NCBI GenBank assembly: GCA_001692895.1
Contig: KV748203.1
Coordinates: 1,084,330-1,148,329, forward strand
Direction: 5' to 3'
Source of the DNA: Cenococcum geophilum 1.58
Lineage: Eukaryota; Ascomycota; Dothideomycetes; Gloniales; Gloniaceae
Length of the DNA stretch: 64,000 bases
This document shows positions 2,076 to 14,502 of this stretch, one piece after another (positions within the stretch are counted from its first letter, which is position 1; each line of letters begins with the position of its first letter). The position numbers and the translations under genes are program-made. A model generated the notes under the pieces. The model worked only from the letters and a program-made list of their open reading frames with translations, did not search any database and was not told the DNA's origin.

Positions 2076-3661
2076 ATGAGTGGCCGTAAGTCTCATTTCC
2101 CCTTGCGCCTCGAGCCTCCGCAATACCCCATTCTTGAAAACAATCACTCTCAATACAACGTGACTGACTTCTCAATTGCAATATAGTACGCTTCCTCGAC
2201 CTCGTAAAACCGTTCGTACCTCTCGTCCCCGAGATCCAGCTTCCAGAGACCAAAGTCCCGTTCAACAACCGGGTAATATGGACGGGCCTCACTCTCCTGG
2301 TTTTCTTGGTCATGAGCCAAATGCCTCTTTACGGAATTGTGTCATCAGATACTTCAGATCCACTATACTGGCTGCGAATGATGATGGCAAGTAACCGTGG
2401 AACTTTGATGGAGCTGGGAATAACACCCATTATCTCCTCGGGCATGGTTTTCCAACTTTTGGCTGGTACCCATCTGATTGATGTCAACTTGGATCTAAAG
2501 ACGGATCGCGAACTATACCAGACGGCACAGAAGCTTCTTGCCATCATCTTGTCCTTTGGTCAAGCGGTCGTGTATGTCCTTTCTGGCCTTTACGGCCAGC
2601 CTTCCGACCTCGGCGCTGGAATCTGCGTTCTCCTCGTAGTCCAGCTCATCATCGCTGGTCTCATTGTCATCCTTCTCGATGAACTGCTCCAGAAAGGCTA
2701 TGGTCTTGGAAGCGGTATTTCTCTCTTCATTGCGACCAATATTTGCGAGTCGATTGTATGGAAGGCTTTCTCTCCAACCACTATCAACACTGGACGTGGC
2801 CCTGAATTCGAAGGCGCCATTATCGCCCTTATCCACCTCCTTTTCACATGGCCAAACAAGACCATCGCTCTCCGCGAGGCTTTCTACCGACAAAACCTAC
2901 CCAACGTCATGAACCTGCTAGCGACCGTCATCGTTTTCGGCGCCGTTATCTATCTCCAGGGCTTCCGCGTTGAAATCCCCGTCAAATCTTCGCGCCAGCG
3001 TGGTGTCCGCGGCTCTTACCCCGTCCGCCTGTTCTACACCTCCAACATGCCCATCATGCTGCAATCTGCGCTCTCCTCTAACATCTTCATCGTCAGCCAA
3101 ATGCTGTACTCTCGTTTCTCTGAGAACCTGCTCGTCCGCCTCCTCGGTGTCTGGGAACCCCGCGAGGGATCTGCTCAGCTCTATGCCGCCTCTGGTATCG
3201 CATACTACATGTCAGTAAACTCCTACCCACACCACATTATGTACTAACAAGATCGTTTTCTCAGGTCTCCTCCCCTCAGCATCACCGAGGCCCTCTCTGA
3301 CCCCCTTAAGACCGCCATCTTTATTGTCTACATGCTCGTCGCCTGCGCCGTCTTCTCCAAGACCTGGATCGAGGTTTCCGGCTCCTCCCCCCGTGACGTC
3401 GCCAAACAGCTCAAGGAACAAGGACTCGTCATGGCTGGCCACCGCGAGGAATCTATGTACAAGGAACTCAAGCGCGTCATCCCCACGGCCGCGGCCTTCG
3501 GGGGTGCTTGCATCGGTGCTTTGTCGGTTGGAAGCGACTTGATGGGTGCTCTGGGCAGCGGCACCGGTATCCTTATGGCCGTCACTATTATTTATGGCTA
3601 CTTCGAGATTGCCGCCAAGGAAGGTGATATGGGTGGCTTGAAAGGTATGGTGATGGGATAG
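2076..3661 (+). CDS. SEC61: Sec61 alpha, protein-conducting channel of the ER
   Basis: Three exons: 2076-2085, 2187-3210 and 3265-3661. Together they give 1431 nt and a 476-residue protein, the usual length. The first exon holds only three codons and one base (ATG AGT GGC C) before a GTAAGT donor. The spliced start [13 protein letters not shown] is typical of fungal Sec61. The second intron (3211-3264) has a TACTAAC branch site. The whole chain is recognisable, with about ten hydrophobic membrane segments, QMPLYG after TM1, the cytosolic loop [19 protein letters not shown] used for ribosome contact, and the C-terminal segment [17 protein letters not shown]. It forms the Sec61 translocon with beta and gamma subunits, moving nascent proteins into or across the ER membrane. 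No broken or missing part is seen. Confidence 0.97.
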
Positions 3662-6108: not shown

Positions 6109-9100
6109 TTATTGCCCATACGCCATCCAGGCATCGTGGGCTTCTCTTAGAACTGTAGAATGTTAGAGAGCGTATAGAATTTGCAGGAGATCCTAAACTT
6201 ACCTTGGAGAACTTGTGTTTGCGCGATGTAAGTTTCGCAAGCACACTGCAGGGTTCGACCATCCAGGAAATCCAAGATTACGCCTTTTACCATGTTAACT
6301 GTGTGAGCTCAGATGATTAAAGATACTACTTACTATTTGGAAGTTCCTGTCGGTCTTGATCTGGAGCGTATGGTGTGCGGAACTCGCTGAGATGATATCG
6401 CTTTGTAATGCCTCGCGGATGCTATATTACTGTTAGATTGGAGATTAAATAAGGAGTATTGTGGTACAAACTTCATTTGCTTTTGACAGTGTCAAAACGA
6501 TATTCCCCATTCCATCAATCTCGACCCATCTTCGTTTCCAGAGCTAGTCATTGTTACTAACTGAGAGCATACATCAGATGCTACGCAACTTACCAGGGTA
6601 TCGGGGAATTGAACATTAAGATCTCCTACTTGTACCGCAGGTGGAGGTTCTCGAAATGATGACAAGCCAGCCTCGTAGTCCTCTTCCTTAACTGTGGGGC
6701 TGATAGATTGAGACATGCCTTTACGAGATGCCGCTGATATCGATGACGACATCCTCTTGAAAAGTCGGCTAGTTCTCGAATCTTTCTTATCCTTCTTGTC
6801 TTCCCTCTTGTCATCATTGCTTTCAAGACTGTTCACCGATCGACTCCGGATGGACATGGATGCGGGTGGGGACTTGGCTTCACTCATACGTCGTCCTAGT
6901 GATCTCCAACTGGTTTCCGAAGAAGATCTTGGGAGACCAGAGTTGGTATCTCTCGAGGGAGGGGATGAAGGAGGAACTGGTGATGTCGGCTCTGCTCGCG
7001 ATAGGTTGACTTTCGAGCTCGATAAAGACACGGGGGCTCTCTGATGGTCGATGATAATCGGACTTTGATGAAGTTCAAGAGGAGAGTTTCCCGTCGGCAT
7101 TGTCAAATTCGGCTTCTGTGTTCGTGGATCCCGTACAATACGAGCAGTAACTTGGACTGATTCTGGCTTGTCATGCTGCTGTTGGACGTTGTACACTGCG
7201 TGTATGCTGTCCTGAGGTGGCGGAACAGCCTGCCTTTCAGGTGAGGGCCCAGTCATTGATGTAAAAGAGGTTCTGCTAAAACGCTTTACATGCTTCGGTT
7301 TGGGCGAAGGTCCGGAAGGCGGTGCCCGAAACGATGATTTGCGTTGTGCGACAATTGAATTAGATGACTCGGGACTTGGGCTGGGGTTTAATGATGCCGA
7401 AGACTCCCGATTGGAGTTCTCAGCAAGAGCTTTAATTCTTTGAGAGATGCCTGATGAGACGTTGATCTTCTTTGCTATTACCATATTTTCCTGATTTGGC
7501 TTGGCGAACCATGATCCAGAGGATGTACGGTCACCCGCACTCTGTTCCGGCGAAAGTTGACCAGAAGGGAATTGATTTGCAGACGATCTTTCCGGAATAT
7601 TGACAACGGAAGTTGAGGATTTCCGGGCAAAAAATGATGGAGTGATAGGAGACTTAGAGACAGAGACAGGCTTGGCTTGTTCGAATTTGGCGCTTTGGAG
7701 CTCTTCCATGAAGGAGTCGTCTGATAAATACTCAGTATCTGAGTTCTCAGCGCTGAGATCAATTCGAATTGGCTCCACGAGTGCACGTCGCTTCTCTCGG
7801 ACTTCGATGGTACTCTTCCGTTTAAGCGGTGATAGCGTTGTAGCCTCCGCTTCCGCATCCACATTCTTGTCCTCATCCTGCGCAGGAGAGGCTTCATGTT
7901 CCACCTTCTCTTCGGCCTCTTCCGAAGGCAGTACCGGAGGAGCATTAACTTCGATTGATGGGATAGGCGAGGCATCCTCAGGAACGACGGTCGGAGAGCT
8001 TTCGATAGACTCTTTCTCTAAAGTTTCCTGGCTATCTGGCTCCGCGGTGGAATCTTCCTTCGTGATGATCTCAGAGTCTTGGAAAACCATGGGTTTCACC
8101 TTTAAAATAGAATCTGAAGGATCCTCTTCCTCTGATATAGATGACGGCCTTGTTGAGGAAGAATCCGAAGATTCTTGTGTTTGGGCGGAAGTCGGTGATG
8201 AAGCAGATGCAGAAGACTGTTGATCCTCGGCTTTTCGTTGTCCGTTAAGTACGATTTCTACTCCAGAATCTGCCATTGAGTGGTCCGTCAATGGCAATGG
8301 GAAGTTCTCTACGCTGGCAGCATTGACAGTGGAAAGTGGCTCCTCCATTTTGGGTCCCTCGGCTGGCGGTGGATCAACAATTGGTTCCTTTTCAACAGGC
8401 GGATCGGGCTCCACTACTACCACGGGAGGGACTTCATCTTTGGCCTTATTCGCCTCTTCTATCTTGCGAGCATTCATCTGTTTCTTCCGTAGCTCTATAG
8501 CTTTCATTAACCTCTGTTTTTCGGGAGTCATTCCGGACGAGCGGTAGGCTGTTGCGGGTAAAGATCTGATGCTGGCAGGGCTAGAAGTAGGTCGCATCGG
8601 TGTTATTAGAGATAGTTCTGGAATATTAGGTATAGGTGGAGGTGGCGGGAAGGCGATGCTTGGGACGACACTTGAATCTCTGGACTTTGGACGTTTTTGA
8701 TCTGTTTTCCTTGGCGCAATGCGTAGACCTGCTGGAAGTGTCGACACTGGTCTAGCTTCAGCTCGAGAACCGGTGCCTGAAGTATGTGGTCGTTTGCTGC
8801 CCTCCATAGAAGGTCGTGGCCGTGGCCCCAGCTTAACTTTTGGCTTGTAGTCATAGTAGATGGAGCTATACAGATCAGAAGCGCTTGGCCTTGCGGTTTG
8901 TGATGAAAGCCGGGGCTCCTCGCCGTTCTGCAGGAGAAATTCGTAGTTTTTCAGAGTGGCCATATAACCTGCATTTATCGGCTCGCTTTTACCGGCGTTT
9001 GATGATTCCAAGACAGCTTCCGCAGTAACCTGAGACACCGAAGTCTTTGCTCGTGGTGTGGTTGGCTGATTATCAAGCGAGGTCCGCACCGGTGATGGAA

Positions 9101-9804
9101 CGTCTGATTTTGCTGGAGTCTTTACTTCAGGGCTGGAAGGTTCCAAGATCGTTGGTATTGTGGAAGTAGCAGTCGCTGGCCGAGCTATGGAAGAGGTGTC
9201 ATCTGCACTGGCCTGCCCTTCCTCAGCATCTTCGGTTATTTCATCCAACTTCCGCCTTCGGGAAGAGCCGCTGGATGAGCAGCTCGATGGAGCAGCGGTG
9301 TGGAGAGAACATGCTGCGGTGAGCGCGGTATCATTGAGCTCCTCAGCAGCGCTTATAGGGAAGATTGTATCATGTGGGGAGAATTTCTCAGTAACGGCTT
9401 GGAAGTGCACAGCTACCCGGGCTACGACTGGAAGTTAGCTCTAATTCCTCCGAAAAAGCTTTATCAAGACGTGCCTTGGAGTAATCGCGATGTTCCATCC
9501 GGTATGTACTTTATCAGAACCTTGCGCCGTCGATATAGCAGGAAACCGTAGAGGGGTGACTTTTCGGAATATTGCGCAACCGCTCCTCGGGCTTCGGCAA
9601 GACCACCGGCACCACGTGTGAGGATATCCGTGGCATCTCTCGAGGTGTATTTGAGCAGGAACCTGCAATGGAAGAGTTAGTGGGCGGAGCCTTGCAGGTG
9701 TACGAGCGCAAGGCAAAGGCAGGAACTCACCAGCCTCCAGCTTCGGCTAATGCAGACTGGTATGCTTCGGAAACTTTTACGGAATCGAGGCCATTCAACG
9801 ACAT
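6109..9804 (-). CDS. fungal ADF-H (cofilin-fold) plus PH-like domain protein
   Basis: I rebuilt seven exons on the minus strand: 9804-9731, 9662-9475, 9421-6594, 6543-6472, 6421-6334, 6283-6203 and 6152-6109. They sum to 3375 nt, exactly 1125 codons, 1124 residues. The N-terminus MSLNGLDSVKV...GGWFLLKYTSRD...SPLYGFLLYRRRKVLIKYIPDGTSRLLQARVAVHF is the ADF/cofilin-type fold seen in a conserved fungal family (residues about 1-140). A long disordered Ser/Pro-rich middle follows, and the C-terminal 110 residues look like a PH domain (LWKRRWVEIDGMGNIVLTL, YHLSEFRTPYAPDQDRQELPN, VILDFLDGRTLQCACE, LREAHDAW). A role linking actin to membrane or cortex is inference. Intron 9422-9474 begins with GC, not GT. 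Intron 6284-6333 uses an AAG acceptor, chosen because it restores PNSVILDF and gives a normal 50-nt length. The large middle exon alone would give only a truncated call starting at an internal Met. Confidence 0.85.
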
Positions 9805-11728
9805 TGTGATATCTGCACCCAAGAAGCTCTTGAGGTAATGTTATCTGGTGGTCAGGCGTCGTGGTAGCAGCTGAAGAGAGTAATCTGCGGGCCGAGCCCT
9901 GTGTCAGGGGGGTTCTCAGACGCCTCGTTGGCGAGGGTCAGATGAGGGTTGCGCGGACCATTGAGGCCTTAGGGAAGCAACAATAGACAGGCGGACCATG
10001 TAATCGCAGTGCACTAGGCACTTGGAGTTGGCAAGTGTTTGGTGGAGGAATGATTGCAAAAAATCTTGTCGGCAAAGATGGGTACAGAGGCAGCTGTTGC
10101 GGGTTTCAGCTGGGGACGAAGTAATCGGCAGTCTTAGCGCCCCGAAGTACCACCACACCTTGCGAAGATGGCGTCGTCGATCCAGCCAGCCCAGCGTCTA
10201 TGAGATTAAATTCCCGGACAAAGCGAGGGCGACGGTTTGGCCCGGCAAAAGCTGTTTGATGGGCGATAATTTGAGATTGCCGTCAGTCGACCAAGGAGAA
10301 TAATGTGGGCACCTCAATTGGCAGACGCAACAGTTGACTGGCTTGCAGCATGCCGTCCATGGATTTGTTCAAGCAGTCTTACGCGAAGCGCGTCAGAAGT
10401 ACTTATGATACTACACCCGGACGCCCATCTCGCAGACGGAGAAGAGCTAAAGCTTACTGACATCTATATAACCTGCACTATTGCCTGGGCTGTGTGAGGA
10501 CCTCGCCACACCCGCAAACGTCTACGCCGCAAAGCGCTCATCTAGCCTTTCGTTAAGGATGTGTGCCGCTGTGGTATTGCTTGCGCACCATCAAACATAC
10601 AAGCACAGTATGCGCTTTATATTCCGAGCTAAGCCAAAACCTTGGATCTCATGATGGCGGGTATGGAAAATAAAAATCCATCAGGTTGGGCATCAGTAGT
10701 CGATCTGAAGTCACGATGGGAGGGATTATCTATGCATGAACGATTTCGATGTGGAGGTGCATCTCTGGTGGGGCCAGATCAATTTCCCCTTCTCTCTAAA
10801 ATACGCGACCAGGTGCAGAAAGAAAGGCAGGGCTAGGAAAAGGTCGGGGGATTTGTCTCAGAAGATTCTGGCGACACGGTGCAACGCACGGACCGCGGGA
10901 TTTCTCCCTAGGGGTCTAAGCAATACAGCACGTGAAGCTAATTAATATCTAACCTCTATTCACTATCTCTTAGGGCCTACAATGGGTTGGGTAGGTATTG
11001 TTAATACTACCTTGCTCCCTACCCATCACGGAGTAGGTATATAAAAACCGCATACCTATAATGATCTATCCCTTGACACGATTGGGTCCTCGGAGTGGGT
11101 AGTCCGGTGCGAACGTCAGAATCAAAATAACGCGATTACACCACTACTATGCCTTCCAATCGTACCAGAATCGATATAGACCTTGTTCAGCCTACTTAGT
11201 ATAACGTTAGGCCGAATTAAAGTGTAAAAAAACCCCGCCTTAAGCCCTGGCCGTTGCCCAGATTCCTGAGTACGGACATGAATTCAGCTAATTTAATTGG
11301 TTGGTTCTTATCGATAACATGAGGACCCGAAGCATCGTGTTAAGGGATAAGACCTTATCCCTTATATTAGTGGTTAAGCCCACTAAGCTGTAGCCCGCAC
11401 GCGATCCAATCAGAACCAGGCGGTCTAGTATTCTGCCAGTCTTTCTATCTTAACTTTTGGTGTTCCTCGCACGGAGCACCGGTTTATACACACCACCAGT
11501 ACAAGGGATAGAGTTACCCATTTTAATAGTAAACGGAGTGTTAACGTAATCCACAAGCAAGTGGCCAGCACAAGCATGTGGCCACCCTGCACCTGAGCGA
11601 ACCCCTCCACAATGCGGCTGTGCTGATGGCAGGGATGTGCTTCTTCAGCGCCATGTCGCTCAGCCTGCTCCTCTCTTCACTGCGACAACGATATCCTGAT
11701 TTTCTAATGCCTGTACGCGCCTTTGGAC
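9805..11728. other. divergent intergenic region between the ADF-H/PH and PNP-Hsp40 genes
   Basis: 1.9 kb between two divergently transcribed genes. Open frames up to about 90 codons occur, but none is convincing. The right half (10.93-11.56 kb) is richer in A/T and contains several copies of AAGGGATA or its complement (see the candidate MITE). No RNA gene was seen. Confidence 0.6.
11065..11512. mobile_element. possible MITE-like relic with inverted ends
   Basis: TCTATCCCTTG at 11065-11075 is exactly inverted as CAAGGGATAGA at 11502-11512, 448 bp apart, and a perfect 11-bp-arm hairpin (TAAGGGATAAG, 11341-11351, with 11354-11364) sits between them carrying the same core. There is no coding sequence. 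No clear target-site duplication was found, so this may be chance or a very old element. Confidence 0.25.
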
Positions 11729-14502
11729 ATGAATCGCCGCCGCCTTCGAGCCCAAGACTACACTATAGGATGGATATGCGCCCTTCCCATCGAGCTTGCC
11801 GCTGCCCAAGAGATGCTGGATGAGGTGGATGAGAGGCCCATTCCAGATAGCCTTGATCCGATTCTCTACACGCTCGGCCGCATCAATGTCCACAATGTCG
11901 TCCTTGCCTGTCTTCCGGCGGGGAACACCGGCACCCAGTCCGCCGCTACGGTTGCGGCCCGAATGAGATCCAAGTTTACGTCAATCCGATTTGGCCTAAT
12001 GGTTGGCATCGGTGGTGGAGTCCCCAGCCTCGAATTAGACATACGACTTGGGGACGTGGTAATCAGTCAGCCCTACATGCAGCATGGAGGCGTGGTGCAG
12101 TATGACTTTGGGAAGACAGAAGCAGGCGGAAATATAACACGGACAGGATGGCTTAACGCACCGCCGCCAGTGCTACTCCATGCGATTGTGGAGCAACGAG
12201 CGCTCCACTACAGAGGCCGGAGCAACCTTTCCACGTATTTAGCCACCTTCGACCGACTAGAAAACTTTAGCCGTAACACGGCGGGACCTGACGTATTATT
12301 CGAGGCGACATACGATCATGTTGGAGGAGCAACATGCGAGCAATGCAGCAATGAGATGAAAGTAAGGCGGCCTGCGCGAAAGGGCCGAGAGGTGGGGATC
12401 CATTACGGCACAATAGCATCAGGCAACCAGGTCATGAAGGACGGCATTACTAGGGACAAGAAAAGCAGGGAGCTAGGCGGAGTAATGTGCTTTGAGATGG
12501 AGGCTGCCGGTCTAATGAACGACTTCCCTTGTCTTGTTATTCGAGGGATTTGTGATTATGCGGACTCGCACAAGAACAAGAAATGGCAGCCATGTGCTGC
12601 GGCAACGGCGGCTGCATGCGCGAAAGAGATACTGTCCATTATCCCTGGCATCCCTGGAGCTACAGTAGCTAGGACGGCCACCGTGGACGAGACTGGACAA
12701 ACAAAGATTGAAATGAAGTTGGACCAGCTCGTAAAGGAATTTCGACTTGGATTTAAGTCTCCCGCGCTGTTTGCGCAAAACTTGGAGAAAGAGCTTGTGG
12801 ATGACAACATAACGGAGGTGGATGTCGAAGAGAATAAGGACTTCATAAACGAGTGGCTGAAAAGCACGCATGATAAGGGAGAGTTTGACGATCCGGGCCG
12901 GGTTGAGCGACGTCCTGGCAAAGTCAATGAAAATGTGACTGACGCCCAGTCTCCGCAAAATTACCAAGGCATACCTCCGAAAAGCAATTCGGCGACTCCG
13001 AAGCCACAACAGGCCTATTGTGAGGATTATGATGACAACGAAGACGACGTGTCCGACTACAGCGATGGTCCTCTCCCAAGCGCTGAGACAGAAGTGCTGG
13101 ATGATCAGCCTTCTGTGCCGTCTGCTAGCCGTAACGCTCCCAGTCCCAAACGGAGACCAGACTACGTTCCTAGATATGTCCATCCATTAGCTGAAAATGA
13201 AAGGAACAGGTTGAAGAAACCCCAACACTTTTCCAGAGGCGATGCTTTTGGCGAGGACGGGGTTGCAGCTGCCGTTTCAAAAGATGAACCTTTGAGAAAG
13301 GCAAGATCAAGACGGGATTGGAGCAGGGAGCAGACCGAATTTGACGACACGAGTCCATATAGGGATTTTTTAAAGCCTTCGGGACATTCCTCGAGAAGGA
13401 GGCCTCACAGTGATCAAGAGAATACAGGAAAACCCGTTCCAGAGAGACCCAAAAGCAATCCCTCTTTCCCATCTCACCAATATCATCGTCCACAAGCGGG
13501 TCCTACGTACTACCGCGACGAGCCAGGTTACGCGGCTAACTATGATGGAAATCAGCCTCAAGGTGCTTACGACTCTTACTTTTACGAAAACGCCTATCCG
13601 AATCACCCTAGCGCTCCCCCCTCCAATACGTTTAACAGCTCTAATGGGTATTCAAGGCCGCCTCCGTCAAGGTATGGTGCTCCGCCTCCCGGTTTCGTCC
13701 CACCACCCCACCAATCTACCCCAACGAGCGGTCCTGAAATGAGAAATCCCGGTGGGACTAGAACTTTCCATTTTAGTAATGGGGGAGGCGGAGGCGGTTT
13801 CAATTTCAGCAACCCGGAATCAATATTTTCGGAGTATCTTAGAGGGGGTGGAGAAGATGTCGACTTCGGTGGCAGGCCCGTACCAGCACCAGCTCGAGTG
13901 CCAGCACCGGAGATAGCCATAGTAGAGAAACTGCTTCCAATGTCTTTGGAGGAACTCTTCTATGGTGCTACGAAAAAAATGAAGATTACACGGAAAACGT
14001 ATGATCCAGCTACTGGCCGCACTTCACCGGAGGATCGCATTTTAGAAGTACCCATTAAGAAAGGGCTTAAAGCTGGCTCAAAAATCAAATTCTCGGACGT
14101 CGGTGATCAGGTTGAAGGAGGAACTCAAGACCTCCATTTCATAATCCAAGAGGCAAATGGGTCCACTCATATTTTACATACCCATCACTAACAATATTTC
14201 GATAGAAACCGCATTCTCTATTCAGACGTGATGACGATGACCTCCACCACACTGTCGATATCAATCTCCTAGAATCTCTCTGTGGTTGGGCTCGGGTCGT
14301 TTCAAGTATCGACGGAAAACAGGTCAGAGTTTCCCATCACGGCCCAACGTCTTCCAAATGGGAAGAGCGGTTCCCAGGCCTCGGCATGCCGCTATCTAAG
14401 AAGCCAGATGAGAGAGGCGATTACGTAGTTGGGGTCAACATTAAACACCCGACAAGCTTGACCGAGGCCCAAAAGGCTGTGTTGAAAGAAATATTGACAT
14501 GA
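11729..14502 (+). CDS. PNP_UDP nucleoside-phosphorylase-like domain fused to Hsp40 (DnaJ class B) C-terminal domains
   Basis: Two exons, 11729-14152 and 14206-14502, give 2721 nt and 906 residues. Residues about 9-305 are the PNP_UDP fold typical of fungal NLR N-termini: DYTIGWICALPIELAAA, the Gly loop GIGGGVPS, the nucleoside-site FEMEAAGL and GICDYADSHKNK with the presumed catalytic Asp. Residues about 306-670 are mostly disordered with acidic and Pro/Tyr-rich tracts. Residues about 675-712 are a Gly/Phe-type segment (TFHFSNGGGGGGFNFSN), then Sis1-like CTD1 (LPMSLEELFYGATKKMKITRK, LKAGSKIKFSDVGD) and CTD2 (KPHSLFRRDDDDLHHTVDI, FPGLGMP, LTEAQKAVLKEIL). There is no J-domain or HPD motif, and no NB-ARC or repeats. 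The intron 14153-14205 starts GC and ends AG with a CTAAC branch; only this splice restores QEKPHSLF. An upstream TTG is in frame, but ATG at 11729 gives the family's normal start. A link between nucleotide cleavage and misfolded-protein sensing is inference. Confidence 0.88.

Follow-up and report, generated by a model that had tools for sequence, protein, structure and literature searches.

Non-self recognition and regulated cell death in fungi are known mainly through NOD-like receptors (NLRs), amyloid motifs and HET proteins. In fungal NLRs, which are STAND proteins, N-terminal effector domains are swapped over a common C-terminal part that consists of a nucleotide-binding oligomerization domain (NOD; NACHT or NB-ARC) and ANK, TPR or WD40 repeats. 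Here a gene is described from the ectomycorrhizal fungus Cenococcum geophilum 1.58 (Dothideomycetes, Gloniales; assembly of 177.2 Mb in 162 contigs), lying in a 64,000-nucleotide stretch of contig KV748203.1 (the window), in which an effector domain of one of these families, PNP_UDP, is instead fused to that half of a Sis1-type Hsp40 which binds clients, the J-domain being absent. The protein may be a receptor in which this J-less half serves as sensor or recruiter for a cell-damaging effector, PNP_UDP here or a HeLo-like domain in relatives, and a probability of about 0.45 is given to this reading.

Other described systems share one or other half of the window protein. The Detocs anti-phage system joins an effector of the PNP superfamily to a response-regulator receiver domain. 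The Detocs effector is reported to cleave ATP (PMC11249213), and a review ties the PNP_UDP domain of fungal NLRs to that finding (PMC10197012). The window protein shares the superfamily through a PADLOC match (PN-superfamily effector, E 5.9e-17, 808-residue first exon), but no response-regulator receiver family was found in its 906 residues with Pfam, and ATP cleavage by it is putative. Class-B Hsp40s (Sis1/Psi1, DNAJB1) have in common with it a helix motif in the Gly/Phe (G/F) segment, both C-terminal domains (CTD1 and CTD2), the lysines of the site for the EEVD tail of Hsp70 and the place of an intron, whereas they possess a J-domain (HPD) that the effector-fused window protein lacks; without it, the window protein should not stimulate Hsp70. 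The CTDs of this class bind both clients and the EEVD tail, which are reported to compete at CTD1 of Sis1 (PMC11722011), and DNAJB1 deprived of its J-domain and G/F linker is reported still to bind alpha-synuclein fibrils (PMC11955550). In E. coli, DnaJ is described as required for detection of the MS2 coat protein by bNACHT25 (PMC12169576), a bacterial precedent for coupling an immune effector to an Hsp40 for sensing. There the effector is a NACHT protein and DnaJ a separate, full-length one; in the window protein the J-less half is part of the same chain.

One gene for both halves

The gene lies at 11729-14502 on the forward strand of the window, with exons at 11729-14152 and 14206-14502 (including the stop). 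A stop-to-stop frame of 827 codons (11708-14191) spans the PNP domain and CTD1 uninterrupted, and excision of 14153-14205 keeps the frame and yields 906 residues; an earlier note, made from the sequence alone, had proposed a single gene of this length, and the open frame and in-frame splice bear it out. The PNP_UDP effector domain (11729..12643, residues 1-305) contains the two motifs that the note had pointed to, FEMEAAG and GICDYAD, and matches PNP_UDP_1 at residues 12-302 (E 5.5e-12; 46 bits, cut-off 25.1). The two Sis1-type domains it had named are likewise found, CTD1 at 13928..14152 (residues 734-808) and CTD2 with a C-terminal helix at 14206..14499 (residues 809-906), with a DnaJ_C match at residues 736-890 (E 1.1e-28) and sequence matches to the solved CTDs of DNAJB1 (E 6e-32) and Sis1 (E 1.1e-30). 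At E ≤1, Pfam gave no DnaJ (PF00226), NACHT, NB-ARC, ANK, TPR or WD40 family in the 906-residue protein, in agreement with the absence of J-domain, NB-ARC and repeats noted before, and the sole further match was a sub-threshold EF-hand. In NCBIfam, the first exon gave sub-threshold matches to MTA/SAH nucleosidases. Between the two halves, the linker (12887..13765, residues 387-679) is of low complexity and, from its composition and its 36% identity to P0003, probably disordered; it is followed by the G/F segment (13766..13927, residues 680-733), the counterpart of the autoinhibitory-helix region of class-B Hsp40s, with the helix motif IFSEYL at residue 699. The layout given earlier thus stands as to its domains, linker and G/F segment, but a helical module between the PNP domain and the linker (12698..12886, residues 324-386) had been overlooked.

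The splice from 14152 to 14206 had also been foreseen. It is in frame. The genome's own Sis1-type gene, on contig C17, is interrupted at the equivalent position and in the same phase as the gene is here by its 53-nt intron (14153..14205), the boundaries on C17 reading GAG|GTAAG...CAG|AAGCCC; the tail thus probably descended from a Sis1-type gene of this kind. The acceptor of the window intron is AG but its donor, which the note had not singled out, is GC. GC-AG introns are functional in general. P0002, with a PNP domain 98% identical to that of the window protein, has Val rather than Ala at the donor codon, and E-V stands at the same point in P0004, P0005, P0006, P0007, P0013, P0015 and P0018, seemingly unspliced frames; GT therefore seems to be the usual donor in the family. 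Excision of 14161-14225 instead, with GT-AG ends, would also keep the frame and give 902 residues, but it deletes the conserved KPHSLF, and an unspliced reading stops the protein after CTD1. Splicing as given here was inferred from the frame, the intron position in the Sis1-type gene and protein similarity.

A homolog search over 5.8 billion proteins, in which 7985 candidates were scored, returned 3386 matches. Among the best 120 of these, 12 carry both Pfam families (P0002-P0007, P0011, P0013-P0015, P0018 and P0020); the carriers include Neocucurbitaria sp. VM-36, N. cava, Dendryphion nanum and Aureobasidium pullulans, genera of the Pleosporales and Dothideales and so of two subclasses of Dothideomycetes. 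P0023 has the PNP domain and the helical module but ends ahead of the CTDs. The earlier note had asked whether any other fungal genome holds both domains in one frame; these 12 proteins do, and they rule out an assembly artefact or a chance fusion. The fusion is real, old and conserved in Dothideomycetes.

The note had also held the architecture to be unusual, and in the openly licensed literature, supplements lying outside its scope, no description was found of PNP_UDP with DnaJ_C or of a DnaJ C-terminal domain with a nucleoside phosphorylase in fungi. Nor was an effector-sensor fusion found described there in which, as this sequence suggests, a chaperone half would take the place of the NOD and repeats of an NLR. 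The main texts of PMC9815663, PMC4986451, PMC12258605 and PMC10197012, on fungal NLRs and immunity, contain neither ‘DnaJ’ nor ‘Hsp40’, and in PMC13311144, on a fungal NACHT protein, DnaJ was met in the reference list alone.

The effector domain and the Hsp40 tail

The PNP_UDP domain has the fold of methylthioadenosine/S-adenosylhomocysteine nucleosidase (MTAN) and, by alignment to 1zos, its residues E22, E258 and D276 are the counterparts of Glu12, Glu174 and Asp197 of the E. coli enzyme. Glu12 and Asp197 are named in the titles of structure entries, and Glu174 is the third catalytic residue in that numbering. Over 31 rows E258 and D276 are invariant and E22 is present in at least 90%. MTAN has these three residues and the fold in common with the window domain but is smaller (~230 against ~300 residues), is 21% identical to it (4l0m) and carries no such tail. 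Residue conservation agrees with N-glycosidic cleavage by the window domain, a possible activity, and with the earlier suggestion that client binding or chaperone titration may gate nucleotide cleavage. The 120 PNP domains that the analysis's own searches had returned, and which are thus no random sample, were placed in a quick tree with midpoint rooting; in it the 13 usable rows of the fusion family form one clade (SH-aLRT 97); P0020 was omitted, its stretch being too short. The clade lies among NLR-type PNP domains, as the earlier description of an NLR-type effector would have it, and its nearest rows include P0026 and P0032, with NACHT or NB-ARC among their listed Pfam families, and P0034, with neither. 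On these rows the PNP part thus appears to have been acquired once from the NLR-type pool.

The helical module at residues 324-386 is conserved, helical in the model and common to proteins in which a HeLo-like bundle is joined to DnaJ_C. Taken alone, this piece matched the STIM1 EF-hand at a sub-threshold E of 0.003. When the family alignment was searched as a profile against the PDB, the top row was huntingtin, a spurious match due to low-complexity columns. No further copy was found in the C. geophilum genome by a single-protein search (E ≤1, two candidates scored), which returned the window gene only. The 140 proteins compared for this module were again those returned by the analysis's own searches rather than a random sample. 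The G/F-helix motif is present in 9 of 14 PNP-type and 4 of 7 HeLo-type proteins and in none of 107 background proteins; the genome's own Sis1-type paralog reads IYSEFL at this point. None of 21 J-less proteins, a set that includes truncated frames, contains HPDK. The canonical set used for comparison includes P0137, in which no J-domain was found, and P0139, with a partial one, and the row for the own Sis1-type gene begins after its J exon.

Within CTD1, the counterparts of DNAJB1 K181, K182, K184, K213 and K217 are all lysine in the window protein. These EEVD-site lysines are retained in 8 of 12 PNP-type CTD1s (P0020, a model without CTD1, being left out) but in only 1 of 6 of the HeLo type. 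The window CTD1 is 87% identical in protein to that of the own Sis1-type gene, and yet synonymous sites between them are saturated (pS 0.99) with pN low; a recent fusion with, or gene conversion from, that gene is therefore rejected.

The tail is not confined to PNP_UDP. The same series of helical module, linker, G/F helix and Sis1-type CTDs without J-domain is found in other Dothideomycetes behind a putative HeLo-like helical bundle, which is probably membrane-attacking. Since PNP_UDP and HeLo-like domains are among the commonest effectors of fungal NLRs, the J-less Sis1 tail looks, from these sequences, like a regulatory part to which different effectors can be fitted and which takes the position occupied in NLRs by NOD and repeats. 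This makes the finding more interesting than first reported, and the one-protein sensor-effector proposed in the earlier note is independently supported by the occurrence of the tail behind a HeLo-like domain.

Genomic setting and related loci

The gene lies where a stretch with genes, among them one for SecY/Sec61 (2168-3658), gives way to ~49 kb of AT-rich sequence. In this part of the window (15000-64000), GC is 24-42% per 2-kb window, strand skews are strong and no stop-to-stop frame reaches 130 codons; it probably consists of decayed repeats. On the reverse strand at 6495-9434 there is a 980-codon stop-to-stop frame with no Pfam match at E ≤0.01.

Elsewhere in the genome, three loci on contigs C7, C53 and C85 (L043, L044 and L047) have an N-terminal helical domain that resembles that of P0122, one of the HeLo-type proteins. 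They are adjoined by ankyrin or TPR frames, with no nucleotide-binding domain in the frames scanned, and are perhaps further effector-sensor fusions without a NOD. A decayed copy of Sis1-type CTD1 and CTD2 with in-frame stops lies on contig C38 (L056:4654-5287, ~1,016,650-1,017,290); a J-bearing query matched the CTD part alone in 8 kb, and it is possibly the relic of another J-less tail. Other PNP_UDP combinations were met among the homologs. P0052 (Pochonia chlamydosporia 170, 1505 aa) has ArgoN, PAZ and Piwi at 107-977 followed by PNP_UDP at 1031-1305, and could be either an Argonaute with a nucleosidase effector or two adjacent genes merged by annotation. P0034 (Xylogone) combines PNP_UDP with a ubiquitin-like domain, and P0112 (Aspergillus fumigatiaffinis) with a Vps62 match, each in one protein in which no nucleotide-binding domain was detected.

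Proposed mechanism and alternatives

In the proposed receptor, the ligands of CTD1 and CTD2 would be clients in a misfolded or amyloid state, or else Hsp70 by way of its EEVD tail, and the length of the linker would allow a single aggregate to collect many copies. The effector would then be switched on by this clustering or by release from Hsp70, and an activated PNP domain would cleave a purine nucleotide or nucleoside so that the cell is arrested or killed. The ligand, the activation step, the substrate and the biological role are inferred. Several observations weigh against the proposal. The HeLo-like name of the bundle lies below the cut-off (P0122 against PF17111: 21.6 bits, cut-off 27.2, E 1.5e-4), and P0126 and P0128, which have DnaJ_C and no J-domain, show no clear helical module and no Helo_like_N match and are weak members. 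The CTD1 tree, with too few columns to tell one origin from several, does not join the J-less tails. Furthermore, the tail might be truncated in this strain.

Alternatively, Hsp70 could be a restraint, its EEVD tail on CTD1 keeping the effector off until proteotoxic stress or an Hsp70-sequestering parasite frees it; the trigger would then be loss of Hsp70 rather than gain of a client. Retention of the lysines by the window protein and by most PNP-type CTD1s would fit this, as would the absence of a J-domain, by which Hsp70 could bind without cycling, and the reported competition of EEVD and clients at CTD1 of Sis1 (PMC11722011). However, inhibition of the effector through Hsp70 binding is a supposition and the lysines are largely lost in the HeLo type, so that this is considered unlikely. 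Still less likely is an integrated decoy, in which the tail would mimic a cellular Sis1 targeted by mycoviruses or hostile effectors, and binding or damage of the tail by the intruder would trigger the effector. The closeness of the tail to the own Sis1-type CTD1 (87%) suits a mimic, but CTD1 is conserved relative to the paralog rather than fast-changing, and to our knowledge no intruder protein targets fungal Sis1. In favour of a decoy, such arrangements have been proposed for fungal NLRs (PMC12258605), and a process linked to DnaJ may be what bNACHT25 guards (PMC12169576). A similarly low probability, if anything a shade lower, is given to an executor acting behind an amyloid-signalling NLR, where the tail would dock on the NLR's prion-like assembly and relay its signal. 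Coupling to NLR amyloid motifs is described for PNP_UDP as well as for HeLo-like effectors (PMC9815663), and class-B CTDs are reported to bind fibrils without J (PMC11955550); against this, the exact PUASM pattern (FxGxGxQxxGxGxF) is absent from the 906-residue protein, a scan that covered neither looser forms nor other amyloid motifs, and no NACHT or NB-ARC match was seen in the 8 frames scanned 5' of the gene, the 3' side and shorter exons lying outside that scan.

A non-immune salvage nucleosidase, with a chaperone tail that provides only solubility or placement, would be in keeping with the MTAN fold and the presence of all three catalytic residues. This is quite improbable, given that the PNP clade sits among NLR-type domains and that a HeLo-like bundle, not known to have a metabolic role, precedes the tail in other proteins. 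Finally, the GC donor could be the mark of a dead gene or of a fusion made in assembly or gene modelling. Such a reading is scarcely credible; it is already contradicted for the family as a whole by the same fusion in 12 other proteins among the best 120 of 3386, while in the window itself one 827-codon frame joins PNP and CTD1, with synonymous sites of CTD1 saturated and pN low.

If the proposed chaperone-tail receptor is correct, protein quality control would be tied directly to cell death, and the fusion would offer a testable eukaryotic parallel to the DnaJ-dependent phage sensing reported in bacteria (PMC12169576). The system is a simple one of two parts, and well-developed assays exist for both modules: client and EEVD binding for the tail, nucleosidase activity for the PNP domain. 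More tentatively still, the family may represent a class of receptor without a nucleotide-binding switch, in which an Hsp40 half serves as an immune or proteostasis sensor for exchangeable death effectors, either a nucleosidase or a bundle active on membranes, and the state of aggregation or of Hsp70 would be read out as death.
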